Shown here: positions 28,251 through 64,000 of the stretch, piece after piece
Numbering within the stretch: position 1 is the stretch's first letter
How the letters are laid out: each line of letters opens with the position of its first letter
Origin: Hemileia vastatrix
Lineage: Eukaryota > Basidiomycota > Pucciniomycetes > Pucciniales > Zaghouaniaceae
Direction: 5' to 3'
DNA length: 64,000 bases
Assembly (NCBI GenBank): GCA_030280995.1
Contig: JASXTE010000017.1
Location: 22,830,498 to 22,894,497, forward strand
Translations under genes and position numbers: made by a program
The notes under the pieces: generated by a model
What the model was told of the DNA's origin: nothing
Seen by the model: only the letters and a program-made list of their open reading frames with translations
Databases searched by the model: none

Positions 28251-28252
28251 AT

Positions 28253-32564: not shown

Positions 32565-32610
32565 AAAAGTGTCCAGCACAAGTTTGGCCGAACTTGTGCT
32601 GGACACTTTT
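32565..32610. repeat. 46-nt palindrome, satellite unit 1
   Basis: Arms AAAAGTGTCCAGCACAAGTT and its complement meet at TGGCCG; 22 of 23 pairs match. Confidence 0.9.
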
Positions 32611-33145: not shown

Positions 33146-33191
33146 AAAAGTGTCTAGCACAAGTTCGGCCGAACTTGTGCTGGACACATTT
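33146..33191. repeat. 46-nt palindrome, satellite unit 2
   Basis: The centre CAAGTTCGGCCGAACTTG is perfect; a few mismatches lie in the outer arms. Confidence 0.9.
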
Positions 33192-33755
33192 ATGAAGGAG
33201 AGTAGCTAGGGTAGAATTTTTCTTCAGTTAATCTGGTATTTCTTATAAACATGTCCATTGGTACTTGATCTTTGTGCCTCACTCATATATATCATTTGAT
33301 TAATTTATTGTCACCATTATATTATTAATATTATAAGTATAGCAAAAAGTCGTGTGCCCAAAGCATACTGGGTGATGTTACACCTTTTATAATATTATTA
33401 AATAAAGGTAAAAAAATATGAAAATGATTTGTTTTACAAAAAAAAATTGATATAAAAAAGCAATATGAGGGATTAAAAGGTAAAATTAATCTCAAAAAGA
33501 TCAATTATGAAAAACAAAATACTAGTAAAAATCTTGCTCTCAAGAGCCAGTAGAAGTGTTGAAAAAAATGGGAGCCATCAGGGCTAAATTGTAATAAGTG
33601 ACCTTTTTTTAAAAGATAAATAATTATACACCTGAGGTTGGGAAGAACAACAGGTGGATGATTCAGCTAAACAAAACTACTTGTAGTGAAGTTTAATAAA
33701 AAAATGATTTTTTGTTGCCATATAGAGAATTGATCCCATCTGACTGCATGTGACT

Positions 33756-33801
33756 AAAAGTGTCCAGCACAAGTTCGGCCAAACTTGTGCTGGACACTTT
33801 T
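33756..33801. repeat. 46-nt palindrome, satellite unit 3
   Basis: The same arms as unit 1, with a mismatch next to the GGCC centre (CGGCCA). Confidence 0.9.
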
Positions 33802-33915
33802 ATGATGTAAAGTAGCTTGGGTGGAAAATTTCTTCAGTTCCTTCATCTTGTATTTCTCATAAAAATATCTACTGGTATTTGATCAGTCTGTATCTTTTAT
33901 ATTTATCATCCGATA

Positions 33916-36900
33916 TGGTAAGGTAAACTCTTAGAGTCGCCTTGCTGTAAGCAGAATCCGGAGGAGATGTGTGGATTTAGCTGAAAACCCTGTCCTTCCA
34001 ATAAAAATAACAAAATGGGAATTCCAAATCACTAAGCTAACCAGTCTACTTGGATCTGATTAATAAAAATAATGAAACTCTAAAATAATTAACACTTATT
34101 GAGATTTAAATAAAAGTGGCTGTTGAGTAAAGAAATACTGATAACAACAATTAAGGTGGACCAGTGAAAGATCTGAAAAGATTGACTTTTATGTTTTTAT
34201 AATAATTTGAATTTTTATGAGTCAGCAATAATCAAGTCCCAGTGATGAAGACCTTTCTAAAGATACCCTGTATGAAGTGTGATTTAAATTGTTGAGTAGT
34301 ATTTCTAAAATGTTATTTATAAAATATAAAGTTATAAGGGTATTACAAATTTATTTAATTTGTTGAGTAATAAAAAATGAGACCGTGGTGGTTAATGATT
34401 AAGCTGTATGATCTATCCCCCGCTCAATTTTGAGTTTGAGAAGCGCTTAAGTATTCCTAGTCACATGCCTAAGTTTTCCCCTCCAGAGCTCTCCCAGAGT
34501 CAATCTGGAGCCCGTACAGAGTCCGTACGGAGTCCAAACGGAGTCCAAGAGGACTCAATTAGAACCTTTAAAACTATAATAAAAAATCTAGAAAAATTAC
34601 ACATAATAGAGCCACTTACCCTTTACACTCCAAACTAATTTTCGTAGTCTGCGCAGCTCTAATCACCCTGTGTAAATTCACCAAAGTTAAGTAATTTCTA
34701 AAAACGTAAGTATTTCTATAAAACTTTAAAATTCATTTAAAAAAAATATAAGAAAAATAGTAAAAATTCTGGGAAAATTTCCCAAGGTTCTTGAGTGACT
34801 CGACTTGATACTTATGAATTCTTCAGACCGTAAAAATAAGTTTTCTCCGTAAAATAAATTGTTTTTGCATAGGCATTTGCTCTTGACCAATTTCTTCATA
34901 TTTAAAACTCAAATAAATTAAATAAAACCCGTTTAAATATAAAAAAAATAATAACGCCAATCTTGCATGCTGTAGTAACTCCATTTACATACTTAGGTGC
35001 CATACTAAACTTTAGGCTACCACATCCTCCCTCCAATTGAGAATGTCCCCATTCTTAAAACTTTGCATAAGTGATTGAGCAATTCCAAAAGAATTATCTT
35101 TTCTAATAAAATAATTTGATAAACTTGTTTTAGCTGGTCTTCTTTTAATTCTTTATAATAAAAACGTTGTTTCTTCTTCTCTGGCTTGATATAACATGAA
35201 ATAAAATAATATAAATCTTGTGATGATTCCACTACTCAGAGCAAGGTTTGAATCCCTTCAGACTCCCATTAACCAGTCTTCCTTCTTGTCACAGCATTGA
35301 GAGAGTGGATCTTCCTATGAGCCAAATACTCCTGATTCCAACCTCATAGGGCCCCCCACTGAGCCGAATTCTATGATTCCAATCTCGCCATAAGGTCCTC
35401 CAAGCTTCACACCAAAAAAATGGCCTAACTATGAGGCACTAAAAAAAAATCATTCCCTAAAATCCAACTACCATCCTAACTTCTGATTCCTTCATCACAA
35501 TTTTCAAACTTTGCTATGCAGCAAACCCATAAAATACTTTTGCCAGGCTTCCAATAATAATATTAACTTTAGACCATGTTAAAGCGCCACAAATTTCACC
35601 TAATTAACCATTATGCTTTCCTTAGCATCATTACCACCTAAAATTTTAACCTCCTAAAGCTTATCAGCACCCAATTCCAGAAATAATTGAATAACCAGTT
35701 TAGAGTCTTAGTGGACAGTGATAAATTAAAAGATTGAATTGAGTTATCCAAACAAGATTGACTTTCCAGTTTAAAGTCTTGGTGGACCAAACATATAATC
35801 GATTGCCAGTTTATGGTCTTGGTGGACCAAAGATCGTTTAGGTGCATAAATAACTTGATGAATTCCTAAATAAGGCCTAGGCTTGACCAAAGATTGAATA
35901 AATTTGATAATCTAGTTTAATGTCATAGTGGACCAATGAATGTTGAATTATCCTGCAGATATTAATTTTCCAGTTTAAAGTCATGGTGGACCAAACATTT
36001 GATCGATAAGAAATCCAGTTTAAGGTCATGGTGGACCCAACAGCTTGATAACAGTCCAGTTTAGGGTCTTGGTGGACCTAACATTTGATAACACTCCAGT
36101 TTAAGGTCTTGGTGCACCTAACATTTGATTTATATAAAAAAAATCCGTCTCCAAAAATATCCATAAAATCTTAATCATCCTTGAAATTCAGTTTAAAGTC
36201 TTGAAGGACTAACAGCTCCAATATAAAATCTTTAATGAAAGTCTTGAAAATTAGCCAGTTTAAAGTCTTGGAGGACTAACAGCTCCAAAATTTGTATAAG
36301 AAAACCTTAAAGAATGTTTTGAACAGTAGCCAGTTTAAAGTCTTGGAGGACTAACAGATCCGAAATACGTATATAAAAAACCTTAAAGAACGTCTTGTAA
36401 AGTAGCCAGTTTAAAGTCTTGGAGGACTAACAGCTGTCTTGAAGTAAAATCCCATTGGTATTGAGTTCCCCTAGACCCTGTTTCCTGTCTAAACTAAATG
36501 AATAAAACTAAAAAGAATGAAGACTGAAAAATAAAACTATGAATTATAATAATAATTTTGATTTAATTAATTGATTTTTTTTTTTTTTTTTTTTGATTTT
36601 TTTATTATTTTATTTTTATTTATTTATTTATTTTTATTTTTATTTTTTTTATTTATTTAATTTTATTTAATTTTTTTTTTAAATTTAAAATATAAGATAG
36701 TTTTGAAATAAAAGTTAAAATTTAATTATTAAAGAAAGTTAAACAAATGTGAAAAGAAAGATAAAAAAAGTAATAATAATAAAAAAATTTCAAAATGAAA
36801 TTTTTAAAAGATGCCCCCCTGGCCATTTGATGAGCCGTACCCTCGACATCATACCCACATCCAAGTGCAACTTGATGTGGTTACACAATTTTGAGAAATT

Positions 36901-37995: not shown

Positions 37996-38948
37996 ATGAA
38001 CTGCCCCACTCCCACACCTACGCCTCCACACCCTAAAGCGGATGGGGGAATAATCACACAACAGTTTTCACAGACTTGCACGGCTTGTGAAAGCATGGAA
38101 TATTTCTGTGTCGAAAGTACGGCGACTCGAGGCCCTCGCCAGAAATGCGAGTTTTGCCGTTGGCGGCGAGTGGCATGCGATGCGTTGGCGAAGAACGTGG
38201 AAATCGAAAAACGATATACCAAAACTAAGTTTTGGGTAGTTCTGAAAACCAAGGAGGTGGTTGAAGACATTTGGGATGTCTCCATCTAAGATGAACAATC
38301 GGTGGGGGAAAATGATAAGGAGTTAAACAACGAGATCTCAACCTGGGTAACCCAGGTCACGAGTTCGAAGCGAGGTGTCGAGGAAGAAGTCGACGAGTTG
38401 GTGGAGGAGGATGAAGATGAAGTCCCTGTTCCAGGGCGGGCACCCAAGAAACGACGGGTGGTCATTGAGGACAATGAGGAAGAGAGAGAGGTAGAGGTCA
38501 AAGTGACACCAAGGTTATTTCTAGAGCCTGACCCCATCTTCGAGGTAAGTTTTTATTTGTTTATTTTAAGGATGAAGTTACTGATGAGTTTTTTGTTTAG
38601 ACATTGAATAACCTTGAAGAGCCGATTGCGGAGCCTGCGCCGATTATACCAACTGAGGCACACCCTTCGGCCACGGAGGTAGTTGAAGAGCCCGAAGACA
38701 CCCTGGACCAAGTGTGGTCGAAGAAACCTCGTCAAGGTCGACGAGTAAGGTTTGCGGAAGAACTATGTGGGGAGGTCGACACTATTATCGAAGCTGCTTC
38801 CTTCGAAGTGGCAGAGGAGCTCTTGGAGATGGGAGAGGTGGTTCCGGTAGGAGAGGAGGAGGTATTTGAGAAATGCAGGAAGGAGATAAGGGTAGTTTTG
38901 GAGAAAATGAAAAGATTGGTTCGAGAGAAGTTAAAAGAAAAGATTTGA
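37996..38948 (+). pseudogene. antisense accessory gene of C1, Zn2Cys6-like, one nonsense mutation
   Basis: Exon 1 is 37996-38544, the intron 38545-38600 (GTAAGT...TTTAG, 56 bp, CTGAT branch-like site) and exon 2 38601-38948. It equals the open gene at 55396-56346 except for amino-acid changes and codon 98, GAA in C2 but TAA here (38287-38289). The Cys pattern CX2CX6CX12CX2CX6C (residues 28-61) is intact, as are PKKRRVV and the C-terminal helix. With the stop, only the first 97 residues including the Cys cluster could be made. It lies opposite to gag-pol and converges with it. Confidence 0.8.
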
Positions 38949-41327: not shown

Positions 41328-41400
41328 AGGGGGTATCAATGTTGACCGATCCGCAATTAAATTAATTGCGGAAAATAATCTGCATACCCCAATTATCTTC
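41328..41400 (+). repeat. left TIR and subterminal palindrome
   Basis: AGGGGGTATCAATGTT is followed by CCGCAATTAAATTAATTGCGG-type inverted sequence and a further CCGCAATTA word near 41399. Confidence 0.85.
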
Positions 41401-41678
41401 CGCAATTATTTTTGCTAATAATTGGGTTATTAGACACTTTACGTGTCAATGTTCACCTCTTATCTGACATTTTTATCCTCAATATTTGATAACCACATCT
41501 TGGACAACTTTCTGGATATCCCAGCCTTCTACCTTGCTGCGCACTTCCATTCTCATCCCATCCTGTTCATTCTATCTGCTCAGAATTTCTCCCCATTTCA
41601 TCTATTTGATTCTTCTCCTTTTCATCTCACTATCTCATCTGCTTGTTTCTGCTCCTTTTCATCTTCATTTATAATAAC

Positions 41679-43076
41679 ATGCCTTGTCATCCTAGATCTT
41701 CTCAAAGGCAGCCATCACCCAGTTGTTCTTCAATTCCCACTACTTCCTCTTTCCCCCGCTCAGCCAAGAAATCAAAGACTGTTCAATTAAAAAAAGATGA
41801 ACATCTCATTCTTATCAACTGGCTGAAAACCAAATCTAACTATGATTCTTGTTTTGGTACTGAGTATGCCACTAAAGTAGGACGGCCCCCGACATCAAAA
41901 GTTAATGGCTATCTTCTAATGGCAAATGAATTACACAATAAGACCAAGGGAAGGATTGATCTATTGCCTAAACAGATGTCTGAACGCTTCAAGCATTATC
42001 GAGCAAAATACAAGAAGGCAAAGGCTCTTTCATCTTCCACTGGTTTTGGGGTTACTGACATTGATATAACTAAGGGTATAAAATCCATAGACAATAAACT
42101 TGATTCTTTATGTCCTTACTTTAAAGAGATGGATGCATTTTTTGGAGAGCGAGCCGATGTTAATCCTGTAAACATGTTGGATGGAGAAGATCCTATCTCC
42201 AAACATGATGTCGAAGCAAATCTTTTCCCATCCTCTTCCTCCACTCAAGCCTCCCCTCTTCTAAATTCTACGAATCTAGATAGCTTTGCTATTGATCCTA
42301 TTGGCGATTTAACCCAACCCAATCTAACTCAGGTCTGTTTCTTTTATCTTATCAATTCTATTTTTTTATTTACTTATCTTTTTCTTATTTCTTAAAAGGC
42401 TGATGAACAAACCCAGGATCCTCAATCAACTGAGTCTGAAGCTAGTGACAATGATGAGGAGGAAAATGCTACGTTGAACAAAAAGAGAAGGGCTTCAACT
42501 AGTCTAAATTTCCTCTCCCAAAGAAGACGAAAAAGTGATACTTCATCACAAACACCTTTTTCTTCGATGGAACAGTTTTTAGAGAAACGTGATGCTGGTA
42601 AGTGATATCATACCTCTTATTACTTTACTCTGCTTTTCTTCTACTTTATGTTAATTTTTATTCTCACTCTAGAACAAGTGGAAATTGCTAAAGAGACACT
42701 GAGCTTTGAAAAGAAGAAATACGAGCTCTCTTTAAGGAGGGATGACAGAGTACAAGATTTGGAAGAGAGGAAGTATGAGCTCTCCTTACGGAAGGATGAT
42801 CGGATCCAAGATTTGGAGGAGAAGAAGTTTGATCTCTCTTTACAGAAGGATGGTAGGGCCCAAGATTTGGAGGAGAAGAAGTTTGAGTTAACTCTTAGTA
42901 TTGAAAAATCCAAAAATAAGGAAAAAACACTCAAGCATCAAAACTTAATGGAACAGATGAAGTATAAGCATGATCTCCAAGAAAGTTCTAAAAAGAAAGA
43001 TTTCTTGATCGAATGCATTAAAGCAAACAAATCTGTTGAAGAAATAGAACGTTTAATGAAATTTTTTGTTGACTAG
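41679..43076 (+). CDS. Harbinger-associated Myb/SANT-like DNA-binding protein, 418 aa, three exons
   Basis: Exons 41679-42332, 42399-42597 and 42673-43076; introns are GTCTGT...AAAAG and GTAAGT...TCTAG, and joining them gives one open frame. Residues about 34-110 form a Myb/SANT-like domain (HLILINWLKTKSNYDSCFG, then GRPPTSK and ISERFKHYRAKYKKA-like text). Harbinger elements typically encode such a partner that helps bring the transposase to DNA. Residues about 130-285 are Ser/Asp rich with a basic KKRR stretch. The C-terminus is a long coiled coil with an 18-residue unit (KKYELSLRRDDRVQDLEE) repeated three and a half times. No stops are present, so the gene looks intact. Confidence 0.8.
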
Positions 43077-43214
43077 TTTCTTTTATTTCTTTCACACTTC
43101 ATGTGTTCATATTTATTTGTACATAAATTTTACAATTATTTTCTGTATTTCTTGAAATATTGTATTTTAATGTTAAATATTCTTTTTTTAAATAAAATTT
43201 TCAAGTCTCCTTTG

Positions 43215-43628
43215 AAAATTTGACAATCCCCCACCCCTGGATTTTTTTGAAGTAAGGGGTGGGTATCACAAAAATTCTTTCATGTCATGAATCTTGAAAG
43301 TTTTATATGAAAATTTGGCTTTACTACCCCCTGCATTTTACCGGTATCCTAAAAATTCTTACATGTCAAGAATTTCACAAGTCTTATCAAAAATTTTGGC
43401 ACAACCCCCCATGGATTTTATTGAAGTAAGGGACGGGTATCACAAAAATATTTACAAGTCAAAAAAATTCTATATCTGTTTAAAAAAATTGGCAATACTC
43501 TCCCCTGCATTTTATTGAAGCAAGGGGTGGGTATCACCAAAATTTTTCTAAGTCATCAATTTCACATGTCAGATTTGAAAATTTGGCAATACCCCCCCCC
43601 CTGCATTTTATTGAAGTAAGGGGTGGAA
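43215..43628 (+). repeat. about five tandem units of 90 bp with TIR-like GGGTATCAC words
   Basis: Units contain GGCAATACCCCCC, TGCATTTTATTGAAG and AAGGGGTGGGTATCAC. The last word resembles the element's own TIR start AGGGGGTATCAA. Unit copies start near 43222, 43312, 43400, 43491 and 43580. 43629-43968 holds nothing I recognise. Confidence 0.75.
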
Positions 43629-43968
43629 GTCATCTAAATTTAATATAATTACATAAATTATTAAATAAATATCTAATATATATCAATTTCCCTAGTTTAA
43701 AGTAATGACAATCCCTCAAGCCAAAATGCAGACCAAGTCGAGAAACATAAGTTTGGGACTTTCTACAGGTATAGGAAAGAGGAACCCCATGAAACAAATA
43801 AATGTTATCATGATTACCTGTTATACAACACAAGGTCGATGGCTCATCACATTATTTGAGAAAATTGATATATAAAAAATATTTATTAAAAATTTATGAA
43901 AAAATATAAAATTTTCGATGACAACTCTAATCCCCATACTTTTTGGATCTAGATAAAGTTTTTTTAAA

Positions 43969-44544
43969 TCAAATAACTTTACCTTCTTTCTTTACCTTAT
44001 TGATTCTTTGTATCAACTTATTACTGATTTGAAATGAGCAACCGAAATGAGTGAAATCTTGACAGGATTTCAAACCAGGAGGAGCTTTGGTCGTTTGATG
44101 ATTATCCTTAGAAGAATTCCAAATAGTTTCGATGATACCATTTCCCAAACCAAAATCAATGATGCACCGGTGGTCTGGAAAATATAAACCATGTCCTTTG
44201 ATTTTAGCTGGAGATGGTATTGGGTGGCCAGTTATCAGATTGATATATGAGAATATTCCAAAAGTAAGAAAATTGGCATCATTCCTATCGATATGAATCC
44301 TATTGTGGAATCCAGAATGAGTGATAATAACATTAGAAAATAAAAGATATTCGTGGCTGATATCTTCCAATTCGGAGTCACACCAATTCAGTATTCCAAC
44401 TTTGGTTGCAAGTTCATGATTTTTTTCAAATGCTTTATTACAGAGCTTGTTGAGTTGAAAAGCAAGAAAAGAGTCAAAGGAAGGTAGAGTGTCCCATAAG
44501 CAAAAATCTTCATCTTTTTGAGCTTTAGTGATATTCTTGACCAA
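43969..44544 (-). CDS. TET-like 2OG-Fe(II) oxygenase domain protein, 191 aa, possibly N-terminally incomplete
   Basis: The frame matches what I know of the TET/JBP-like oxygenases expanded in basidiomycetes. It has THSGFHNRIHIDRND with the iron-binding HxD pair (H84, D86), TFGIFSYINLITG, GHGLYFPDH, IIETIW, the distal His in DNHQTTKAP (H149), and THFGCSFQISNKL near the C-terminus. Such enzymes oxidise 5-methylcytosine or related bases using 2-oxoglutarate and Fe(II). The family is usually longer at the N-terminus; 44545-44590 adds only a few in-frame codons (RHFNYIGIYS), so an upstream exon may be missing or lost. It lies inside the Harbinger-like element, on the same strand as the transposase. 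Activity is not proven. Confidence 0.7.
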   Translation of the reverse strand: MVKNITKAQKDEDFCLWDTLPSFDSFLAFQLNKLCNKAFEKNHELATKVGILNWCDSELEDISHEYLLFSNVIITHSGFHNRIHIDRNDANFLTFGIFSYINLITGHPIPSPAKIKGHGLYFPDHRCIIDFGLGNGIIETIWNSSKDNHQTTKAPPGLKSCQDFTHFGCSFQISNKLIQRINKVKKEGKVI

Positions 44545-44651
44545 CGAATATATGCCTATATAATTGAAATGCCTAGATAATAATCATATAAGAGTTTCAG
44601 AATCCTTATCCTCTAAATATGCAATATAAAAGTGTGAAATAAGACAAGTGA

Positions 44652-44973
44652 AATTTGGAAAAAAGGCTCAACTTCAAAGGTCAAAATCTCAGCAACCACT
44701 GAACCTAATTCAAACCTGTTTGTGGAAAATGAAAGATATGCTTTAGTAGAATCTTCAGTTAAAGGACATGCGATTTAAATAAACCTAACCCTAATTTGTT
44801 ACATAAAAAATGAAATAAAAATTTAAATTGGGAAAAAAAAGGCTCAACTTTAACGGTCAATATCTCAGCAACCACTGAATCAAATTCAAATCTGTTTGCA
44901 GGAAATGAAAGGTAGCCTTCAGGAGAATCTTCAGTAAAAAGAACATTAGATTTGAATAAACCTAACCCTAATT
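44652..44973. repeat. tandem duplication of about 150 bp
   Basis: 44652-44799 and 44824-44973 share AAGGCTCAACTT, ATCTCAGCAACCACTGAA and AAACCTAACCCTAATT with moderate divergence. It lies just upstream (minus sense) of the TET-like ORF. 44974-45717 is AT-rich without a recognisable gene. Confidence 0.75.
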
Positions 44974-45717
44974 CCGAGTCTGATTTTCAAAATTTTACAA
45001 AAACTTGAAAAGTGGTAATGAAGATGAGATCAAAAGGAGTTTTATAAGTTCACTGTTATCCAGATAAGAGTCATACATATATTTAAGTATGAACTTTTCA
45101 TAAATGGAATGAGATATCATATAGGCATGAAAAAAAGGAGATGAAACTTACCTTGATTGAAAAGTAGGAAAAATAGAGTGAGAAAGATTGATGTTGGAAT
45201 TGTGGGGAAATTGAATATGGAGTAAGTGAAATGCATAAAGAATGTGCAATGTATGTGTTTCAATGAAATGGAGCCAAAAAAAAGTGAAATAAGGGAAAGG
45301 GGGGATAATGACAATGTCAAGGAGGGATGAAGAGTAGGGTGATGGAGCTAAAAAATAAAGTAAAGAGGGAGAGAAAAAAAAGGTTAATTATACCATTGAA
45401 ATCCAAAATAACCACTTACAAAAAAAATTTAGATAAAAAAAATAAAATAAACAGAAAAAAACAAAAAAAATTATAATTAGTAATCAAAAAATCAAAAAAA
45501 AAAAGAATATAATGACTTACCTGGAGAGATGAGATGACAAAATGAATGAAACCAAATTGTTTGAGGGATGTTGGAGGAGAATAGAAAAAGGATATGAGGG
45601 ATGAATGAAAAAAAAAATCACTGACAAAATATGCAATTTCAGAAAATATGCGATTTCATGTTGAGCTGGTGAAAGAAAACCAATGAGCCATCCAAAAAAA
45701 AGATATTCACCGTAAAT

Positions 45718-46503
45718 TCAAAAAAAAAAATGAATATGCAACAAACCAAAATACAAAACCAAGTGATTAAAGTACACAAAGAGGACATTTGGAAAGTATG
45801 AAAACATAAAAATTAAAAATAAAAAGGGTGAAGAGAAATGTTGGAGAGTAATTGCAGGCTTTTGACTCAAAGGGATGGTTGTGCCATCAACAAAACCTAC
45901 ACAGCCAGGGAAACCTTCAGCTTGCATTACTTGAGAGGATTCAAGTCGCTGTTCTGGAGTTGGCCAAGCAAGAGTTTGAGACTTGAGGGAAAGGATAGCA
46001 ATCATACAGCGCTTGGTGTATAATATCACGGTACCATATCCTATGTTAAAGAGATTATCCAAACGTCTTACGGCAGCACCATTTCCATTTGAGCCAAAGT
46101 GACATAGAGCAACAGCAAGTTGGATGGCAGGATTACGCTGTTTGTTATGAGAATTGTTATGGAAGATAGGATGATCGGAGATGAGTTGATAAAGTTTGAA
46201 GAAAGAATCGGGAGAAGTTCTAAAAAGTTGTGTGAAGTTTAAATGAGGAATGTTGAGAATGGAGGCCAGATCATATCGGGGATCATGATAAAGATTTGGC
46301 CCCCTGGTGATGATGTAACGCTTTTTGGAAAGAAAACACATATAAGCTAAAGCATCTTCCAAATCAGAGTCAGATTTATAGTAAAGAACTAAAAGAAAAG
46401 TAATAGCATTCATTGTTGAGTGAAGTAGCTTCCTAGTAGAGAGGTGTTTCATTGTTGCCGGTGGAAGGGTTATGTGATGAGGGAAGTGGGAATTCACCGC
46501 CAA
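45718..46503 (-). pseudogene. PIF/Harbinger transposase, truncated after the first catalytic Asp
   Basis: The frame starts MAVNSHFPHHITL and shows PIF/Harbinger-type transposase text: QLAVALCHFGSNGNGAAV, GTVILYTKRCMIAILSL and EGFPGCVGFVDGTTIPL, where D206 is the first residue of the DDE triad. Family resemblance ends at about residue 216 (QKPA, near 45855). The frame then runs into hydrophobic low-complexity sequence. I looked for the YFDRK, second Asp and Glu segments on both strands to 43080 and did not find them, nor a convincing 5' splice site after QKPA. This copy would need a transposase from elsewhere. Confidence 0.8.
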
Positions 46504-46754
46504 ATGTGCAGTTGGGGTGTGTAGATAGAAAAAAAACTTAAGTGTTCGCCACCAAAATTAAGTAGCATAGAGTGAGGAAATACTTAAGGATGGCATCAGC
46601 AATTATAAGTCATGTGACTTTCTTAAAAATCCATCATGGATGAGATGAGTTTGGGATCAGGAATTAGGAATGGAAATTGGGGTATAAGGGGCGGGATAAT
46701 GCATTATCGTGGATTTCTTATCCACTAGCCCTGGGGCTAGTGGATAAGAATCTT

Positions 46755-46832
46755 CCGCAATTAATAATGTCTGATCCCGGGAAAAAAAATTCCTGATCCC
46801 TAATTGCGGATCCCTGAACATTGATACCCCCT
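46755..46832 (-). repeat. right TIR and subterminal CCGCAATTA words
   Basis: The minus strand starts AGGGGGTATCAATGTT, then GGATCCGCAATTAG; a further CCGCAATTA lies at about 46755 on the plus strand. Confidence 0.85.
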
Positions 46833-52818: not shown

Positions 52819-54514
52819 TCAACCAGATAGGTAAAATGTAGATGAATTCCTCTTGATAGCCACACATTCATCGTCTTCACAATCTTCTGGCCTCTCTAAA
52901 GTCAACAAATATTTGACTAACAAAAAATAAAAACCAGTCTGACCCCAGACTTCATCTTGAAAATCAATTAATATAACATCAATAGGGACTTCTCTATCAC
53001 CAATATCACCTGCACATGAATGAGCCAATAATCTTTGACCCCTAAAAAAATCTTTAATTGAGCTATGTCAACATTTTTCTTCTGAACCTTTGGATCCTTT
53101 GTAAACCGTATTCGAAAATACCTCTTTCTCTTTATCCACCTTTTTATTTAAATTCTCTAATTCTCCAACATATACACCATTCCTTAATTTACTACTATCC
53201 CACACTACCAATCCATCTTCCTCTACATACACCACATCTTCTTCTACCTCCTTTCTACCAAATTTATCTACACATTTTCCAACACCTTTATTAACATGAA
53301 AACTATTTTCCAGTTTATCCTCTTGGTGGAGGTCATCATCATAATCTAAACATAATAATCCTGCCAGTTTAACCTCATGGGGGAGGTATGGAAAGTCTTC
53401 AGCTCCTTTAGTGCTGGCTTTGATAATAGGTATATCTTCATCGAACTCTTCTGAGTCTGAATCTTCTTCAGTGGGTGGTCTCCTTGATAAACCATCTGGC
53501 ATAGTAAAAGTCTTGCCAGGCTTATGAACTAAATAAAATGAAAAATGTTGAATAAAAGCTACCCATATCGTCATGGGTGCTTTCGGTAAACTTGGGGAAT
53601 TAATCATCTGGATTAACGATTTCGCATCCACTTGCAACTCAAAATGTTGCCCCCACAAAATATGCTGAAGTTTCTTCAGTATTTTAGCCACACCACATAA
53701 TTCCAATTTTGGTTGAAAATATCTTGATTTGACCTCAGTAAATACTACAGATTCATACCTAACTGGCCTGATGTAACCAGCTTTATCCATCTGAGACAAA
53801 ACCGCCCCAGCTGCAACCTGACTTCAATCAACTGCAAAATAAATTCTACCAGCATCTTTTCCATAATCCAACTTGTGCAGGACTAAATACTTCCCTACAA
53901 CCTCCTTCAACTTTACAAATGCCTTCTCACACTCTTCATCCCACTCCCAGTCTGCATCCTTTCTCGTTAACCGTCTCAATGGAGCTGCCAATGAATAAAA
54001 TTCCTTTATAAACATTCTAACATATGCGCAAACGCCTAAAAACCCTCTAACTTTGATTGTATTCTTGGGTCTTGGCCAGGACTGAATTTTGTTAACTTTC
54101 TTCTTGGACATAATCCTACCCTCTCTACATACCACATGGCCTAATATTTCTAAGGCTGGCACACAACATGAAAATTTTGAACCTGAAATAGTTAAACCAG
54201 CCTCTTCAATTCGAAACAAGATTCTTTCTAATGTAATTGCAAACTCCCAAATGAATTTGTGTATCCCGGGATTCTCTTCCAACACCTGGTTATCATAGTT
54301 GGTTGTTGGTCCCTTAATTCCTCCATCATCTATAAAGATTCCAGCATATTGTGGAATTTTGTCTTGAAGGATCCAAGCCATCTGAGCTTGATAAACTGCA
54401 ACTGAATTTGTTGCTCCTTGAGGTAATCTTCTTAACTGTAAACGTCCTAGTGGCGTATCGAATGTAGTGAGAGGCCTTGAGTCCAGATGTAACTCTCTCT
54501 CATCATATCCGCCC
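52819..54514 (-). pseudogene. G2 reverse transcriptase, RNase H and linker (copy B3), broken
   Basis: 53824-54381 reads RT with GIFIDDGGIKGP (both catalytic Asp kept) and the thumb region QSWPRPKNTIKVRGFLGVCAY. 53068-53799 holds RNase H (YFQPKLELCGVAKILKKLQ, LQVDAKSLIQMI), DGLSRRPP and the acidic linker. 52819-53028 leads to integrase. Stops occur near 53822 (CAA-type change in the RNase H start), 53066 and 52816. The segment at 53311 encodes LHQEDKL through an AGTTTA hairpin. The RT is cut at 54514 by C2 and its N-terminal part is at 62979-63966. Confidence 0.85.
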
Positions 54515-55288
54515 TGTCACCGGACGACCTACGCACAAGGTTGAGGATGTTCCTGGAAGTGAGATGAGGGATTAAGAAACTTCTTTGAAGCACAGAGGAA
54601 TGATTCGAGGAAATGATTTGAAGGTCACTCGAAGTAAGAGCTACAGGTTCGAGGTTTGTTCGAGAAGAATTATAGACTAGTTTCAAAGGTAATAGTAATT
54701 CTTAAAATCTCACGAAGGGTTGGAAAACTCAATAATCAAAGATTAAGGATTTTAGAAATGAATATTGAGAAAATAAAAGAAAGATACAATAACAATGATT
54801 TTAACTTTAAAGGTTTACCACTATTAATGTAAATACGATTTTATAATTTAATTCTAAGGAATATCGAACCAAATACCCAACCCCTTTTATATCCTTTGTT
54901 CCTCCTCACATTGACCTCCCTTCCATCGCAGCATTCCCATTCCATTGACCATTACTAACATACACTTAGACCCTCTTCACTAAATATCCGTCCATGCTCA
55001 ATTTACCCCTTTTTAATTAATTAACAAAACTTTAATGAAAACTACTACTGTACTATTTTGTTGAACCTAGCGCTGTGCGTCGCTTATTGAAAAGGACTAA
55101 GGCACCCTATTGGGAGATTGACTAATTTAGATTTAGAGTTTAGGCTAGCGCAGTTAAATAGTAAGTACACAAAGGAAAATTGCAGTTGCTATGGAGAATT
55201 GCTTTCTGCACATTGAGTATAGATTTATGACTTGATATTATTGATTTAATGAGCTTCTTTTGCCTCGAGTGTCACGTGGCGCGTGACA
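54515..55288 (-). repeat. 3' LTR of C2
   Basis: 774 bp, TGTCACCGG...GCGTGACA. Confidence 0.95.
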
Positions 55289-55298
55289 GATTCCCGGG

Positions 55299-55304
55299 TA
55301 TAAG
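55299..55304 (+). promoter_or_regulatory. TATA box of the antisense gene, C2
   Basis: GGGTATAAGAA lies about 95 bp upstream of the ATG at 55396, immediately outside the LTR. Confidence 0.5.
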
Positions 55305-55395
55305 AATTGTGAACTCTGTTGAGCTTGAGCCATCTTCCCACACTAGTTTCCCTTCTAATAATTTTTTCCTCACTTATTAATTTCTCTTTTTTATA

Positions 55396-56346
55396 ATGAA
55401 CTGCCCCACTCCCACACCTACGCCTCCACACCCTAAAGCGGATGGGGGAATGATCACAGGACAGTTTTCACAAACTTGCACGGCTTGTGAAAGCATGGAG
55501 TATTTCTGTGTCGAAAGTACGGCGACTCGAGGACCTCGCCAGAAATGCGAGTTTTGCCGTTGGCGACGAGTGGCGTGCGATGCATTGACGAAGAACGCAG
55601 AAATCGAAAAGAGATTTACCAAGACCAAGTTTTGGGTAATCCCTAAAACCAAAGAGGTGGTCAAAGACATTTGGGACGTCTCGATTGAAGATGAACAATC
55701 GGTGGGGGAAAATGATAAGGAATTAAATAACGAGATCTCAACCTGGGTAACCCAGGCCACGAGTTTGAAGCGAGGTGTCGAGGAAGAGGTCAACGAGTTG
55801 GTGGAGGAAGATGAAGATGAAATCCCTGTTCCAGGGGGGGCACCCAAGAAACGACGGGTGGTCATCGAAGACGACGAGGAGGAGAGAGAGGCAGAGGTCG
55901 AAGTGGCGCCAAGCTTTTTTTTAGAGCCTGACCCCATCTTCGAGGTAAGTTTTAATTGTTATTTTTTAAGGATGAAGTTACTGATGAGTTATGTTTAGAC
56001 ATTGAATACCCTCGAAGAGCCGATTGGGGAGCCTGCACTGGTTATACCAACTGAGGCAAACCCTCCGGCCAAGGAGGTAGTTGAAGAACCTGAAGACACC
56101 CTGGACCAGGTGTGGTCGAAGAAACCTCGTCAAGGTCAACGAGTAAGGTTCGCGGAAGAATTATGTGGGGAGGTCGACACAATTATTGACGCTGCTTCCT
56201 TCGACGTGGAAGAGGAGCTCTTGGAGATGGGAGAGGTGGTTCCGGTAGGAGAGGAGGAGGTATTTGAGAAATGCAGGAAGGAGATAAGGGTAGTTTTGGA
56301 GAAAATGAAAAGATTGGTTCGAGAGAAATTAAAAGAAAAGATTTGA
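55396..56346 (+). CDS. antisense accessory protein of G3 elements, Zn2Cys6-like, 298 aa, one intron
   Basis: Exon 1 55396-55944 (183 codons), intron 55945-55998 (GTAAGT...TTTAG, 54 bp), exon 2 55999-56346. Cysteines 28, 31, 38, 51, 54 and 61 give CX2CX6CX12CX2CX6C, the spacing of fungal Zn(II)2Cys6 clusters, though the basic residues sit mainly after Cys5 (CRWRRVAC). Residues 129-142 are very acidic, PKKRRVV at 150-156 resembles a nuclear localisation signal, and the C-terminus is a charged helix (LEKMKRLVREKLKEK). It is transcribed toward pol, opposite to gag-pol. Between C1 and C2, codons 24-64 show six synonymous and no amino-acid changes. A nuclear regulatory role is my inference; I do not recognise a named family. 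Confidence 0.8.
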
Positions 56347-57297
56347 AATGAAAAGGAGATGTAAAGAAGTAGAAAAAAAATTTGTATTTTAGTTTTATTT
56401 TATTTTATTTTTTTTTTGTAGGTGAATATTATTAATTTTATAAGATTTGGGAGAGAGAGAAAAAGAATGAAGAAGTTTAAAATAAAAATTTTAGAATTTG
56501 AAAGAAGAAGTTTAAAGAAAGAAAAAGGTTGTTTAATTGAAGGAAGTTTTAATGTTTTTAAAAGGAAAATTTTATGTAAGGAAAGAGAGAGAAAAAGAAA
56601 CGTTTTTGTGATTGAGATGAGTTTGTTAAATTGAGGATTTAATGAAAGAAAAATATATGTTTTTTTTTTTTTTTTTTTATTATTTTATTTTAGGAAATTT
56701 TAGTTTGAAAAGAAAGGAAGAAGAAAGAAAAGAAAAAAAACAGAATTTAGAATTTAAGAGAATTTGAAAAGAAGAATTATTTGTTTCAAAGAATTATTAT
56801 AGGGAGATTTAGAGGTTGAAGTTAAGTTCGAGGAAATGGTCGTGTCCTACAAGATTTGGTGCTTCGAAGGAAAGAAAGTTTTTAAAGAGAGAATAAATTT
56901 TTAGAAAAGAAATTTTTAAAGAGAATTTTAAATTTAAGAAAAGAATGTATTTAAAGAATTGAAAAAGAAAAGGAAGAAAATATTTAGAGAGATTTAAGAG
57001 TTTTTTTAGTTTATTTTATTATTCATGTTTATTCTATTTTTTTTATTTTATTTTTATTTCTATTTTATTAATTATGTTTATTCTATTTATTTTATTTTAT
57101 TTTATTTTTATTTTATTTCATTTCATTTTATTTAATTTTAATTTTGATTTTACTTTGAGTTGGTTTTGGAGAAAATTTTATAGAAGGAGAAGAAAGAAAA
57201 AAGAAGAGAAAAAAAAAACAAGGCTAAGAAATTTAAGAGGTGTTTTAGATTTTAAAGAAAGAAAGAAAAAGAAAAGAAAATTTTAAATAAAGAAATT
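56347..57297. other. purine/pyrimidine-skewed spacer between antisense gene and pol, C2
   Basis: A/G-rich on the plus strand, with T tracts near 56400 and 56660 and TTTTA/TTTAT microsatellite at 57010-57145. The small frames here (for example 56422-56634) are Lys/Arg/Glu low complexity and not convincing. Confidence 0.7.
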
Positions 57298-60200
57298 TTA
57301 AGGTTTTGGTTTTAAAGGATATTTCAAATGAAAAGATTTTAGGAGTTCAGGGGCGTTAGAAACATTGATGGCTGGTTCCCAGGATGTTTTGTCTGAGCCA
57401 TTGAGGAAGCCTTCCCATTCCACAAGGTATTGAAGTTTCCCCTTGCGTATTCTTGAATCAAGGATACGACTTACTTCCCACTCTAGATGATCTTCTACTT
57501 CGACCGGTTCCGGAGGGGTTGGTTCTTGCCCGGGTATATTTCTCGAGCCAGTTCCAGGAGGGATACATGGAAAACAGGGTGAATCGCCTGCCATTTAGGA
57601 GGTAACTTGAGTCAAAATGCAGTTTTAGATACTTCAAAGTTGATTTCGAATGGTCCCAAGCGCTTTTCAGCCAGTTTCTTTGATGGTCTTGTTGTTCTAA
57701 TGTTTCGTGCGTCGAGCCATACTTTGTCGCCTGGTTTAAAGGAAGGAGCAGATTGTTGATGTTTGTTGGCCTGTTCCTTGTATCTTCGAATTGCTGATTC
57801 CAAATTTGTTTTAAGTTCTTCTTGGAGTTGTGATATAGTTTGAAGATAATGTTCCGCAGGATGATAAGTTCCTACATGGATTGAGTTGAATCGAGGATGT
57901 TGTCCATAAATGGTTTCGAAGGGAGATTGTTGTGTCAAAGAATGAGTCGAGTTATTATAAGCAAATTCGGCCAATGGTAACCATGTGGTCCAATCATCTT
58001 GTTGGTAACTGACATACATTCAAAGATATTGTTTGAGGATTTGGTTAACTCTTTCTGTTTGACCATCGGTTTCAGGGTGATAGGCCGTGGAGAGATTCCT
58101 CGTGATATTGAGTTGTCGACACAGTTGGGTCCAGAATGTGGATACAAACAATGAGCCTCTATCTGAAATAATATCATTTGGTAAGCCGTGTTTAGAAAAT
58201 ACATATTCTAGAAACAATTTTGACTAATCTTCTGCTGTGACAGTAGTAGTGGTTTTAATGAAAATAGACATTTTTGAAAATATATCTACTATTACTAATA
58301 TAGCATCAAAATCATTAGAAATAGGAAGTTGAGAAATGAAATCCATCGATAAAGATTATCAAGGTTTAGAGGGAATAGGAAGTGGTTGAAGCAACCCATG
58401 CTTCCGGTGACGGGGAGCCTTATTCCTATTACATTGATAACAAGCTTTTATATAGGCCTTGATTTCCCTGGTCATACCTGGCCAGAAGAAATCCCTCGCT
58501 ATTAACTGGTAGGTTTTATCAAACCCAAAATGACCAGCTAATGGAGAATCATGTCAACTGTTGAAAATCCATAATTTTATCTCATTGTTGTTGGGTATGA
58601 CTACTCTACCTTCGAAGACTAATAGACCTGATTCAATACTAAATCTTTTGGCCCCTTGCTTCGAGAGTATTTTGTCTTTTAACCCTAAACAATATTCGTC
58701 CTTCGACTGAGCTTCGAGGATGTTGGAAAGTGGATTTCGAAAAGATTGAATTGTCATTGAATTAAGTTGATGAGTCGTTAACATTGATTCGTTGAAGATT
58801 GATTGCACATTTGCTGGGTTCTTGTCAGCAAATGCGTCCCCCCGCTGTGGGTAAATGTCGTCCCAACGTGACAAGATATATGGGACAATGCAGTTTTTTC
58901 CTGGGCAATAGAAAATAGAGAAAGAAAATTCAGACAAAAATTCAGCCCATCTGGCTTTACGCCTGGTTAACACTTTAGAAGACATGAAGTATTTCAAAGC
59001 ATTATGATCTGTTAAAATTTGAAAAGGACTATCTAGGCTGAGAAGAAAAGAACGCCATTTTTTAAGACAATGGATAATAGCTAAAAGCACTTTGTCATGA
59101 ATTTCATAATTTAATTCTGCGGCTATGAGTTTGCGTGACTCAAAAGCAACAGGATGAAACAAATTTGTTTCAAGATTTAATTGGGAGATGACCCCTGCAA
59201 TAGCATAATCGCTCGCATCTGTCTCAACTATTGTCGAGGCAGAAGGATCAAAATGTTGAAGAATTGGGGCTGTGGTGAACGCTGTTTTTAGTGCTTCGAA
59301 TTCCTTTCGTGCTGTAGAAGTAAAATCAAAAGGAATGTCTTTTCTAAGAAGAGAAGTAAGATTGGAAATAGTTTTAGAGTAATCTTTAATAAATCTTCTA
59401 TAGAAGTTTGCAAAACCCAAAAATCCTTGGAGCAATTTAATGTTTTTGGGCTAAGGCCATTCCAGGATTATCTGGAATTTTTTATCATCCATGACTAAAC
59501 CGTCAGTGGACAACGTAAAACCCAAAAAATCAATTGATTTGAGGTGGAATTCACATTTATTATGCTTGGCGTAGAGACCATGATCTCGAAGACGATTTAG
59601 GACCTGTCGAACATGATGAATATGTTCATCTAGTGTTTTCGAGAATATTAAAATATCATCTAAATAGACGACTACAAATTGTTCAACAACATCTGGAAAG
59701 ATATCATTAACAAAATTTTGAAAAGTTGAAGGTGCGTTACATAATCCAAAAGGCATAACTAAATATTCAAAACTACCAAATCTAGTGCGCATTGCAGTAA
59801 GTGGTTCATGAACTTCTGCAATGCAAATCAGATTGTAAGCGCCTCTAAGATCAATTTTTAGAAAAGAAATTAGCACCATTGAAAAGGGTAAGAAGTAATG
59901 ACATAGGAGGAACAGGATATGCATTCTTCTTCGTGACTGTGTTGAGCTTTCTATAGTCAACACACAACCTAAGACTACCATCCTTCTTTTTTACAAAGAG
60001 GACAGGGGAGCCGGTTGGAGATTTACTGGCTCTGATGAAACCTTTGGCTACATTCTCTGCAATGTAGTCTCGAAGAACTTGATACTCGTCCTTCGATAAA
60101 GAATAGACAGGACCTGCCGGAGGTACTGGGCCTATTAACTCTATTTGATGGTCGTAGGGTCGATGAGGTGGTAACTTATCAGCCTTGCGGATTGAGAAAA

Positions 60201-60954
60201 CATTGAGGAAATCGTGGTAGATCTCCGGTAGAGTTGATTTGATGGCTTCAACGTTGATTTGGTTGTCCTCTTCATTTTCGAGAGAAGCTGTTGAGGGGAT
60301 ACCTGTATTGAGAGAGCAGAATTCAATTACTTCGAGGCAATTTAAATCCTCTTCGAGTGAAGTCATCAAGCTAGAAGGGTTAGCCAATTGCTCATTTAGA
60401 GAAGGATCAGATGCTTGCAAGTCATCTGGCAGAGACTTGTCCTCTAACAGGATGTTGTCAGGCGGGTTGTTTAACTCCCTATTGACCTGCATTGAAGAAT
60501 CAGAAATATACTTAGATCGTGGGGTGATCAATCCCTTAGTCCAATCAATTTCGGGATTCCAATGCATTAAAAAGTCATGGCCAAGAATGGTATCGTCCAT
60601 CCTTGGGGCGTCCAAGACTGATAATTCCCACTCTAAGGGGGGAAAGTTTGGAAAGTTGAAAACCCATAAAACTTTCTTACTTACCCAATATTTGGGTTCC
60701 TCTGATTCGATCAAATAGATTGGAGTTTGATAGATATCTGTAAATTTTAGTTGAAGCTTCTTGGCAAAAGATAAACTAACAAAAGAAATTGAAGCTCCAG
60801 AGTCTATAAGACAACTGAAGGGGATATCCCCCTTAAAAATAATGAATCTCAAGCGGTTTAAGGCAACTCCAGTCCTTAATACATGGAGGTTCTGTGCACT
60901 GGGAAAGATAAGATAGTTTGCTTTGCACACAAGTAAACTATCTACTAGTTTTTT
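57298..60954 (-). pseudogene. C2 pol: protease, RT, RNase H, integrase, chromodomain, multiply broken
   Basis: It enters from the -1 frameshift site. Protease has an intact CLIDSGAS (60796-60804). RT shows [20 protein letters not shown], a one-base insertion near 59857, then VVYLDDILIFSKT (YLDD about 59655-59666). A stop follows at 59451 (GAG to TAG). RNase H has VETDASDYAIAGV and ILTDHNALKYF (58554-59435), ending in a CGA-to-TGA stop at 58554-58556. Integrase has SDRGSLF and GQTERVNQ (58020-58217). The GPF-type segment and chromodomain (WEVSRILDSRIRKGKLQYLV) lie at 57298-58019, with a frame break near 57600. It cannot make a working polyprotein. Confidence 0.88.
60912..60954 (-). promoter_or_regulatory. 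programmed -1 frameshift signal between gag and pol, C2
   Basis: Slippery A AAA AAC at 60948-60954, TAG TAG as the gag stops, 5-nt spacer, hairpin at 60912-60942 with stem GATAGTTT/AAACTATC and an inner CTTG/CAAAG pairing around TGTG. Gag and pol frames differ by exactly -1 across it. Confidence 0.85.
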
Positions 60955-62132
60955 GACTTTGAACTAGTACCTTCTCTTTCCTTCAATTTTACACAGTCAT
61001 CCAACTTGTGCTTACCCCCACAATACATACATAACCCATTATCTTCTCGTCTCTTCCTCTCAGCTTCTTTAAGTTCCCCTTTAGGACCCAGTACCTTGCT
61101 GATATCGCCTAGGGTCGAGCCTTTTGGTCGAGGTTTATCCTTTCCCTTATTGGGTTTGGATTGAGTCGAGGAGGATTGATTTGGTCGTGGGTGTGAAGAA
61201 GGTCCCGATTTAAAATTTAGGCCTTGAGATTTGTTGGCATATCGACAATGTTGAAGTCGTCCTTGATAAACGCCATCAAGTTCGAGGGTTCGATCCATTA
61301 AATCCGTTAAAGTAGTCATCTTCTGACCATGAAGATTTAATTGATCCAGAATTCTCGAAGGAAGTCCTTTCTTGAAATGATACTTAAGGGCAGCATCATT
61401 CCAACCTACTCGAGTTTGAAGTGCTCTGAAGTTTGAGATATATTCAGAGGCTTTACCATTATCACTCATGCGAAGAAAATCAAGTTCAATTTCTGCGTTG
61501 TCCGTTTCATTAGGGTCCCCAAACAACGTAAAAAGATGGTCTTCGAACTTTTCCCAATTATTGATAAGTAAGTGGGTTTCTGTCGAAGAAAGTATGAGTA
61601 GATAAGGTTCGAACCATCTTTCTGCTTTCCTCGCTAGGAATGAAGAAGCGTAAACAACCTTTGATCGGTCTCTGTTAAAGGTTCAAGGGTCATTATGGAA
61701 CAGTAACTTGCAGGTTTGCAAGAAGGGTCGCAATCTGTCGGGGTGATCTCCGTCAAATTTGTCAGGAGATTTCATAGAAGGAGTTTTGATTTTAGATCCC
61801 TCTAAGGACGTTGGATTTGAAAGGGTTTTCATGAAAAGTCTCATGAAATCTTCCAGAGAGTTAGATGGTCCAGGTTCTGAGGATTGGCCAGAAGGGTGAT
61901 TGGCAGGGGCGGATGGTGCCTCGTGTATTGTATCCTCTCCTTCTTCTTCATCACTAGAATCCTCAAAATCTTGTGGGATGTCTTCTACAGATTGAACTGA
62001 ATGTTGCCTTTCCCTAAGGTTGAGTGGTTCCAAAGAGTGAGTGCTGGAAAGTGACCTTGTGGCTGTTGGCCTGCCTCTAGCGGGAGCTCTAGTAGTAGCG
62101 CCCATAGGAGGAGTGCGTTGAACAGGTGCCAT
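60945..62132 (-). pseudogene. C2 gag, one CGA-to-TGA stop
   Basis: It starts at the ATG at 62132 (MAPVQRTPPMG), 72 bases inside the LTR. A TGA at 61683-61685 replaces the Arg codon of C1 after FHNDP; the frame then continues unbroken through WEKFEDHLFTLFGDPNE, KYHFKKGLPSRILDQLNLHG and the zinc knuckle CMYCGGKHKLDDC to the SKSKN stop at 60945. Apart from this single nonsense change the frame is complete, unlike C1, which has a frameshift. About 395 codons. Confidence 0.87.
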
Positions 62133-62189
62133 TTAAAATTTTTAGAAACACCTAAAAGGACGTAGTAGTGCAAAGAAGGAAAACTACGG

Positions 62190-62203
62190 AGAATTAAATT
62201 ATA
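62190..62203 (-). other. self-priming-type primer-binding site of C2
   Basis: TATAATTTAATTCT on the minus strand, one base from the LTR, complementary to AGAATTAAATTATA at 62532-62545 in the LTR. Confidence 0.65.
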
Positions 62204-62204
62204 C

Positions 62205-62978
62205 TGTCACGGGACGACCTACGCACAAGGTCGAGGATGTTCCTGGAAGTGAGATGAGGGATTTAGAAACTTCTTCGAAGCACAGAGGAATGATTCGAGG
62301 AAATGATTCGAAGGTCACTCGAAGTAAGAGCTACAGGTTCGAGGTTCATTCGAGAAGAATTTTAGACTAGTTTCAAAGGTAATAGTAATTCTTAAAATCT
62401 CACGAAGGGTTGGAAAACTCAATAATCAATGATTAAGGATTTTAGAAATAAATATTGAGAAAATAAAAGAAAGATACAATAACAATGATTCTAACTTTAA
62501 AGGTTTACCACTATTAATGTAAATACGATTTTATAATTTAATTCTAAGGAATATCGAACCAAATACCCAACCCCTTTTATATCCTTTGTTCCTACTCGCA
62601 TTGACCTCCCTTCCATTGCACCATTCCCATTCCATTGACCATTACTAACATACATTTAGACCCTCTTCGCTAAATATCCGTCCATGCTCAATTTACCCCT
62701 TTTTAATTAATTAACAAAACTTTAATGAAAACTACTACTGTACTATTTCGTTGAACCTAGCGCTGTGCGTCGCTTATTGAAAAGGACTAAGGCACCCTAT
62801 TGGGAGATTGACTAATTTAGATTTAGAGTTTAGGCTAGCGCAGTTAAATAGTAAGTACACAAAGGAAAATCGCAGTTGCTATGGAGAATTACTTTCTGCA
62901 CTTCGAGTATAGATTTAGGACTCGATATTATTGATTTAATGAGCTGCTTTTGCCTCGAGTGTCACGTGGCACGTGACA
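62205..62978 (-). repeat. 5' LTR of C2
   Basis: 774 bp, TGTCACGGG...CACGTGACA, with TATA (GATATAAAAGG) and the predicted self-primer at 62532-62545. Confidence 0.95.
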
Positions 62979-64000
62979 CACCCATAATATCTCCCAAACC
63001 ATAACACACTCTCCCTGAAAATGCTTCGACAAACTCCTCAGCACTAGGTGGTATTCCAGCATCCTTTATTGTAACCCTATTTAATTCCCTAAGATCATGA
63101 ACAACTCTAAGCTTGCCATTCGGTTTCTTGATACAAAATACCGGACTAGAATAACTTGACGTTGATTGGTAATACAGTCCAGTGTGTATCCGTTCTCTGA
63201 CAACTTCAATATAGGCTTCTTTTAATGCAGCCGGAATAGGAATTGGTTTCTGCTGCCACGGTTCATGACATACCACAGGAATCTTGTAAGGCTCCCCATA
63301 GGAATGCTTCAACACACCCCTCTCCTCTTCTACAAAAGCAATGGCCTTCTCTCTCTTGACCATCACATCCAACAACAACTTCTTCTCTTCTCCAGACAAC
63401 CAACCATCAGGTCCAAAATTAACAACACCCAGTCTCTCAAAAGTGATTCTTGACGTCTCAGGAAATTCAGGCGGATTCTTTTCCAAGGGACTTTCATAAG
63501 GATCTCTTGATAACCTTGGTATTCTCAAGGGTGGATTTAATTCGGCAGGTAGCGGTTCATTTATAGGTCTAACTTTATTTGCTACTTTTTTATACTTGGC
63601 TGCGTCCACATCTAAATAAACTTGAGGTAAATCATTTACTTTTGTATCGCCATTAAAAATTTCATCAAATGAAACTTCTTCATCGTCAGAATCGGAATAA
63701 GAAAAAGTAGAAAAATATTTTATTTCATTTTTTAATTTTACCCTTTTCTCCTTTCCCTCGTCTAATTTATAAACAGATTTTCCAACACCTTTGCTTCCCT
63801 TATCCAACAGTAAATCACCCGTAAAGAAAGTTGGCAGTTTAACCTCTTGCCAGAGGAGCGGAATTGAATTTTCACAAAAATTATTTTTTTGTGTTTTAAT
63901 TATACTGAGATTTTCAATCGGATTTAGATAAGATTTTCGCAGTTTACCCTCTTTCTGGAGGTCCATAATAGAAGGAGATACTTGCAGTTTAACCTCTTGC
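62979..64000 (-). pseudogene. G2 pol N-terminal part (copy B3), open to the C2 junction
   Basis: A continuous frame of over 320 codons runs from 63966 to the C2 boundary. It carries an acidic stretch (SYSDSDDEEVSFDEIF), a conserved RT-upstream block (VVNFGPDGWLSGEEKKLLLD, GVLKHSYGEPYKIPV) and RT start motifs (FCIKKPNGKLRVVHDLRELN, CYGLGDIMG). The last five codons before the stop come from C2 sequence. LQKEGKL and LLWQEVKL are encoded by AGTTTA hairpins at 63940 and 63834, and another begins at 63985. The rest of gag is beyond the window. Confidence 0.82.

Follow-up and report, generated by a model that had tools for sequence, protein, structure and literature searches.

A two-exon antisense gene under purifying selection in a Ty3 chromovirus family of Hemileia vastatrix

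The antisense gene and its predicted protein

A 64,000-nucleotide (nt) stretch of the genome of the basidiomycete Hemileia vastatrix, hereafter the window (assembly GCA_030280995.1, contig JASXTE010000017.1, positions 22,830,498 to 22,894,497 of the forward strand), carries on its minus strand a Ty3-type chromovirus of about 8.5 kb (54515–62978), and between pol and the 3′ long terminal repeat (LTR) of this element lies an antisense gene of two exons (55396–56346, plus strand), the translation of which gives 298 residues. Purifying selection on this two-exon plus frame is well supported by the copies of the family. Exon 1 (55396–55944) encodes residues 1–183 and exon 2 (55999–56346) residues 184–298, that is, 115 residues with a charged C-terminal end, followed by the stop. 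The 54-nt intron between them (55945–55998), of spliceosomal type judging by its signals, runs GTAAGT..ACTGATGAG..TTTAG, and in-frame read-through into it ends in TAG. Within the part encoded by exon 1, a six-cysteine region, CX2CX6CX12CX2CX6C, occupies residues 28–61 (55477–55578, plus strand; C28-X2-C31-X6-C38-X12-C51-X2-C54-X6-C61), and PKKRRVV, a possible nuclear localisation signal flanked by acidic stretches, occupies residues 150–156 (55843–55863, plus strand), a combination that would be consistent with a nuclear protein. Upstream on the same strand, a TATA-like TATAAG (55299–55304), the putative promoter element, starts 11 nt beyond the boundary of the 3′ LTR, and each of the five bases of TATAA is conserved in 95% or more of the 61 copies aligned. 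The GC content is 0.50 in the gene and 0.39 in pol.

The second copy of the element in the window carries the gene as well (37996–38948, plus strand; 92% identity), with an intron of 56 nt (38545–38600) and one stop in exon 1. A preliminary description of this DNA had given the coordinates, the strand, the cysteine spacing, PKKRRVV and a 54-nt intron at 55945–55998, had claimed a TATA for the gene, and had placed such an opposite-strand, two-exon gene between pol and the 3′ LTR in both window copies; all of this was recovered here.

Presence across the element family

Searches of the genome (747.6 Mb) with the DNA of the gene returned 3714 candidate places and those with the exon 1 protein 6843, of which 40 and 150, respectively, were scored, so these figures are not copy counts. 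An LTR lies upstream in 60 of the 60 fetched loci inspected, seven of which repeat a place already fetched; in 58 it is a single piece within 300 nt, and in two, L014 and L043, it comes in two pieces, the inner one stopping 110 and 108 nt ahead of exon 1, respectively. A further set was chosen blind to the gene, by taking the 20 best-ranked among 40 matches to a 601-nt pol query and leaving out the two window copies and two places fetched earlier; the remaining 16 matches comprise 14 that were left unread and two from elements fetched before. Absence of the gene from most copies, which by the preliminary description would have told against it, is not what was found: it is present in all 20 pol-selected elements read, 19 of them with both exons and 18 with both exons end to end, as exon 2 of L095 runs off the stretch and L091 has exon 2 only. 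For comparisons among copies, 101 sequences (100 loci and the second window copy) were reduced to 81 distinct ones free of exon indels by removing eight duplicates and 12 others, namely nine with exon indels, L042 and L095 with an incomplete exon 2, and L091 with a missing exon.

Conservation of the intron

Among the 81 copies, the intron begins and ends with GT..AG in 79, with GT..CG in one and with AT..AG in one, while GTAAG[TC] is retained in 78 and CTGAT close to the 3′ end likewise in 78. Its length is far less conserved than its signals: 42 of the 81 introns depart from 54 nt, ranging from 52 to 71 nt and falling in all three phases. Length changes thus affect 42 of the 81 introns, at about 54 nt each, as against 9 of 93 distinct copies for the 897 nt of exons, an excess of which T-runs in the intron may account for part. 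The reading that the sequence behaves as an intron whose splice signals are conserved is well supported by these patterns. A joined-exon pattern allowing up to two mismatches, which would match 79 of the 81 copies if they were intron-less but fits none of their 81 genomic sequences, had no match genome-wide, and no retro-processed, intron-less copy was found with it. Such an outcome would be expected if reverse transcription uses the opposite-strand genomic RNA alone.

Constraint on the coding frame

Because the loci L032–L060 were picked by protein similarity, the ratios given below rest on groups chosen by DNA or by pol. The DNA-selected groups consist of 28 of 30 copies near the window copy and of 20 copies near the second copy together with the second copy itself; the pol-selected group consists of 12 of the 20 copies, eight being dropped for indels or missing parts. 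Over the whole frame, NG86 dN/dS between the DNA-selected groups is 0.177, with exon 1 at 0.142 and exon 2 at 0.273; the whole-frame value is 0.207 in the 12 pol-selected copies and 0.40 within the two young groups. The lowest between-group values are those of codons 65–100 (0.060) and 101–183 (0.149). Codons 1–23 are little constrained, with 0.53 between groups and about 1 within the young groups, the pol-selected value being 0.23. For codons 24–64, the six synonymous and zero amino-acid differences originally counted between the two window copies, and taken as a sign of selection, were reproduced exactly, and the segment is indeed constrained (0.186 between the DNA-selected groups and 0.22 in the pol-selected copies), but replacements do occur across copies, the ratios within the young groups being 0.70 and 0.55. 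Silent divergence between groups is highest in codons 61–80 (pS 0.505).

Given that CpG decay and transitions bias NG86, a neutral expectation was derived from LTR mutations, amounting for the gene to a pN/pS of 0.62–0.65 (five copies). A stricter pN/pS is 0.251 between the DNA-selected groups (codon bootstrap 0.170–0.366) and 0.283 in the 12 pol-selected copies (codon bootstrap 0.211–0.375), with limits that are approximate because codons, not copies, were resampled and the copies are related. Purifying selection on the plus strand, first suggested from two copies, thus holds in these groups of copies, at about 0.4 of the neutral value, a constraint diluted by free decay after insertion. In the two window copies, pN/pS is 0.52 for pol (655 codons with few changes; neutral expectation 0.68) and 0.23 for the gene, which, lying below pol, is under coding constraint like other proteins of the element. 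Simple codon-position counts in young copies gave no clear signal, the signal being confined to older comparisons. At the protein level, mean residue conservation is 0.92–0.96 in each of six segments (81 copies), spread along the protein.

A minus-strand open reading frame (ORF) of 186 amino acids (aa), sense to the element (55377–55937), overlaps exon 1. Changes that are silent in the plus frame but replacing in the minus frame occur at 0.108 per site, and those silent in the minus frame but replacing in the plus frame at 0.029, which argues that the plus frame is the more constrained. Taken together, the plus-strand frame almost certainly represents an element gene under selection, one that probably acts as a helper or in control of the element rather than being junk.

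Antisense genes known in other elements

Antisense genes at this place are not new in themselves. Antisense ORFs lying between pol and the 3′ LTR are described for Grande, RIRE2, Retand, PvRetro13, and Boty of Botrytis and Sclerotinia, those of Grande and RIRE2 having been described by 1997–1999, and the functions of such ORFs are called unknown (PMC7264820). The plant representatives, termed aORF-3R genes (Grande gene23, RIRE2, Retand ORF4/TRP28 and PvRetro13), share position and strand with the gene described here and occur in most copies of their elements, as the gene does in 20 of the 20 pol-selected elements, and a nuclear or DNA-binding role has been suspected for them. Gene23 of Grande has an upstream promoter of its own, from which it is transcribed, and encodes a nuclear protein (PMC7264820); in the former respect it resembles the gene here with its putative TATA. 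In Retand, all recent elements studied were found to have antisense coding regions, and 97% of clusters contain TRP28 (PMC11963269); Retand nevertheless belongs to a non-chromovirus lineage, TRP28 is a different domain, and the word intron appears nowhere in the main text of that paper. Boty, a Ty3 element of Botrytis cinerea, is likened by description only, being also fungal and carrying the additional antisense gene brtn between pol and the 3′ LTR (PMC7264820; Zhao et al. 2011, Virology 417:248, as cited in PMC8365987). Further afield, HTLV-1 HBZ, an antisense nuclear retroelement protein, is mentioned in PMC11963269, and an opposite-strand gene is mentioned in a Sola1 DNA transposon (PMC12477816), whereas passages of PMC12810828 and PMC5408684 yielded nothing relevant to the gene. 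The novelty originally claimed is accordingly narrower: fungal LTR elements with an antisense accessory gene have been described, Boty with its brtn among them (PMC7264820), but an antisense Zn-cluster gene was not found in the literature searched, nor was a spliced Zn-cluster-like one in a chromovirus, most subscription papers lying outside that literature. As far as this literature goes, the spliced, Zn-cluster-like chromovirus version is the new part, an antisense accessory gene that shows constraint in both exons, as judged against neutral expectation, and whose element has thousands of candidate places in one genome.

A possible regulator of the element

The reading preferred here is that the gene is an accessory gene of the Ty3 chromovirus family with its own promoter beside the 3′ LTR, from which a spliced antisense mRNA would be made. 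The protein would enter the nucleus by means of the basic PKKRRVV and the acidic stretches, would bind DNA through the cysteine-rich region, and would regulate the transcription or chromatin state of the element itself, as proposed for the plant aORF-3R proteins and as is known for the antisense HBZ of HTLV-1. HBZ is a bZIP protein of a retrovirus and a case of antisense control of expression. The intron could persist because genomic RNA, the template of reverse transcription, carries only its complement, which would not be spliced there. A probability of roughly 0.5 is assigned to this mechanism, in which the protein acts in the nucleus to regulate its own element. If the protein binds the LTR, it would be a non-viral parallel to HBZ-like antisense control and would offer a handle on how genomes this large fill with such elements.

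The case for DNA binding starts from the cysteines, which are intact in 482 of 486 cells (81 copies), compared with a mean of 0.951 per residue. The Zn2Cys6 class has the spacing consensus CX2CX6CX5-12CX2CX6-8C, within which the gene's CX2CX6CX12CX2CX6C falls, and in this respect the protein is like the fungal Zn2Cys6 (GAL4-type) factors of PF00172. The two differ in the basic residues, which follow the fourth and fifth cysteines here and the first and second in the canonical proteins. Of the original Zn-cluster claim, the spacing and its conservation stand, whereas membership in the family finds no match in sequence or fold; given the sub-cut-off, half-motif match, the displaced basic residues and the missing fold match, the protein is called Zn-cluster-like.

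Several observations weigh against the preferred reading. The profile search and structure prediction called for in the preliminary description gave a Pfam Zn_clus (PF00172) match of 10.6 bits against a gathering cut-off of 21 (E 0.65), in which only the second half of the motif is aligned, and models of poor quality (pLDDT 40.1 for exon 1 from two sequences and 64.5 for residues 20–80 from a single sequence), for which Foldseek returned no fold match, the best E being 6. Exon 1 and three spliced proteins found no protein homologues at E 0.01 and 0.1, in a search that relies on shared 5-residue words and for which repeats may be missing from gene models. At least one stop interrupts the spliced frame in 46 of the 81 copies, and splice sites are not universal, two of the 81 lacking GT..AG and L081, excluded for an exon indel, starting with TT. 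Changes silent in both overlapping frames of exon 1 are the commonest class (0.260 per site, compared with 0.108 for those silent in the plus frame only), so that the minus frame or the base context may also have some influence. Lastly, in a compact chromovirus elsewhere in the window (about 23334–28835), less than 280 nt separate the repeated stretch from the end of the pol ORF, too short for an antisense gene, which means that such a gene is dispensable for the mobility of chromoviruses in general.

As to the searches themselves, pol used as a control in the same way gave 6840 matches at E <= 1e-10 among 7943 scored, and since many of the 120 matches listed are from Austropuccinia psidii, a rust, the protein database does include fungi. 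No relative of the gene was found in the viral contigs searched, and searches of PDB by sequence gave two chance-level matches in one case (E 0.9 and 1.1) and none in another. Pfam matches to Death_3 (E 0.03) and DUF7161 (E 0.04) were below cut-off and taken as chance.

That the protein matters but not as a DNA-binding regulator, serving instead as a nuclear-import or particle accessory factor or as a counter-silencing factor acting on host proteins, is possible, if doubtful. Conservation of 0.92–0.96 in all six segments is not centred on the cysteine region, and this spread along the protein makes a protein-contact role a serious rival; the lowest dN/dS values lie in codons 65–100 and 101–183, basic and acidic stretches suit protein contacts, and the Zn2Cys6 family is not matched at cut-off. 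The retention of the six Zn2Cys6-like cysteines in 482 of 486 cells, above the 0.951 mean per residue, speaks against this reading.

It is improbable that the antisense RNA is the functional part, pairing with genomic RNA to tune silencing or copy number, with the ORF secondary. Antisense transcripts with such silencing or copy-number roles are discussed for LTR elements (PMC7264820), but codon constraint in the plus frame over two exons and conserved intron signals would be unexpected for an RNA acting as such. Still less credence is given to a decaying passenger, originally a host gene that the element picked up by chance, for which the GC content (0.50 against 0.39 in pol) and the stops in 46 of 81 copies could be cited, since the gene occurs in 20 of 20 pol-selected elements and is constrained between older lineages. 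A further step down stands selection on one host gene exapted from the element at a single locus, which the copies would merely reflect; nothing in its favour was found, and the LTR present upstream at 60 of 60 inspected loci tells against it, no dedicated search for LTR-less places having been made. Least probable of all is that the overlapping minus-strand ORF is the real coding sequence: its frame also gives a low ratio (0.258) and exon 1 is free of stops in it in 52 of 81 copies against 57 for the plus frame (6 of 12 against 9 of 12 in the pol-selected copies), but the exon 1 ratio is lower in the plus frame (0.164), changes that replace in the plus frame alone are the scarcer class (0.029 against 0.108 per site), and the intron and the constrained exon 2 would be left unexplained.

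A possible separate history of the gene module

Outside the gene, the two window copies differ by 1–7% per 200-nt bin, whereas across 55514 to about 56114 they differ by 9–11.5%, the bin preceding 55514 having 7.1% difference and 17 gap columns. At silent sites they diverge by 0.196 in the gene but by 0.047 in pol, a four- to fivefold difference that is found also when CpG sites are set aside (22 of 154 in the gene against 11 of 391 in pol; Fisher p 2.4e-6). For 20 of 22 elements in which both exons were measurable, window copies included, the mean pairwise distance reaches 0.082 in exon 1 and 0.078 in exon 2, compared with 0.024 in pol, by whose closeness the elements had been chosen. Element pairs with an LTR distance below 0.04 range in gene silent divergence from 0 to 0.237. 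The simplest reading would be that the gene module is occasionally exchanged between lineages, for example by template switching, while the correlations of LTR distance with gene silent divergence (0.65) and of pol with exon 1 distance (0.53) speak against full independence of the module. A more speculative and rather unlikely extension starts from the protein, which stays nearly the same while, in the one pair measured, its gene diverges at silent sites: the antisense gene would be an exchangeable regulatory cassette, recombination spreading alleles that keep the regulator yet mismatch the silencing RNAs elicited by earlier copies, RNAs that may in part derive from the antisense mRNA. If this were true, the element would possess a DNA-binding regulator of its own making, respelled at silent sites.

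The host element and its surroundings

The element is bounded by a 3′ LTR (54515–55288, minus strand) with TG...CA ends and a 5′ LTR (62205–62978, minus strand) of 96.6% identity to it (26 differences in 775). Outside these lie CGCCC (54510–54514) and CACCC (62979–62983), respectively, which differ by one mismatch and constitute a candidate target-site duplication in this one element. Its gag-pol (57298–62132, minus strand) is broken into several open frames, and the C-terminal part of pol contains a chromodomain (57298–57594, minus strand; PF00385, E 5.9e-13). Pooled over both window copies, the features of a Ty3 chromovirus are present, namely LTRs, gag-pol with reverse transcriptase and RNase H, and a C-terminal chromodomain; the first copy gave the matches to chromodomain, RNase H and protease, and the second those to reverse transcriptase and gag. 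The LTR end adjoining the putative antisense promoter (55270–55288) forms an inverted repeat, TGTCACG-CGCCA-CGTGACA, where a regulator or integrase could act. In 47 LTRs (54515–55288 and 46 others), C-to-T differences amount to 0.117 per site at CpG and 0.030 at non-CpG C, an excess that looks like decay through cytosine methylation.

The compact chromovirus has LTRs that are identical across the 300 nt compared and a pol ORF of 1002 aa with a chromodomain. The second copy of the antisense-gene element is split by a 5.5-kb insert (41328–46832) with perfect 14-nt terminal inverted repeats (AGGGGGTATCAATG). Of the ORFs in this insert, 45718–46503 resembles a DDE transposase by eye, with no Pfam match, 41643–42392 is weakly Myb/SANT-like, below cut-off, and 43972–44544 matches a Tet-like 2OG-Fe(II) oxygenase (PF20515, E 8.6e-27); the insert is possibly a DNA transposon with a Tet-like gene. 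Repeats at 32117–33933 are spaced by about 580–610 bp, in two to three copies.
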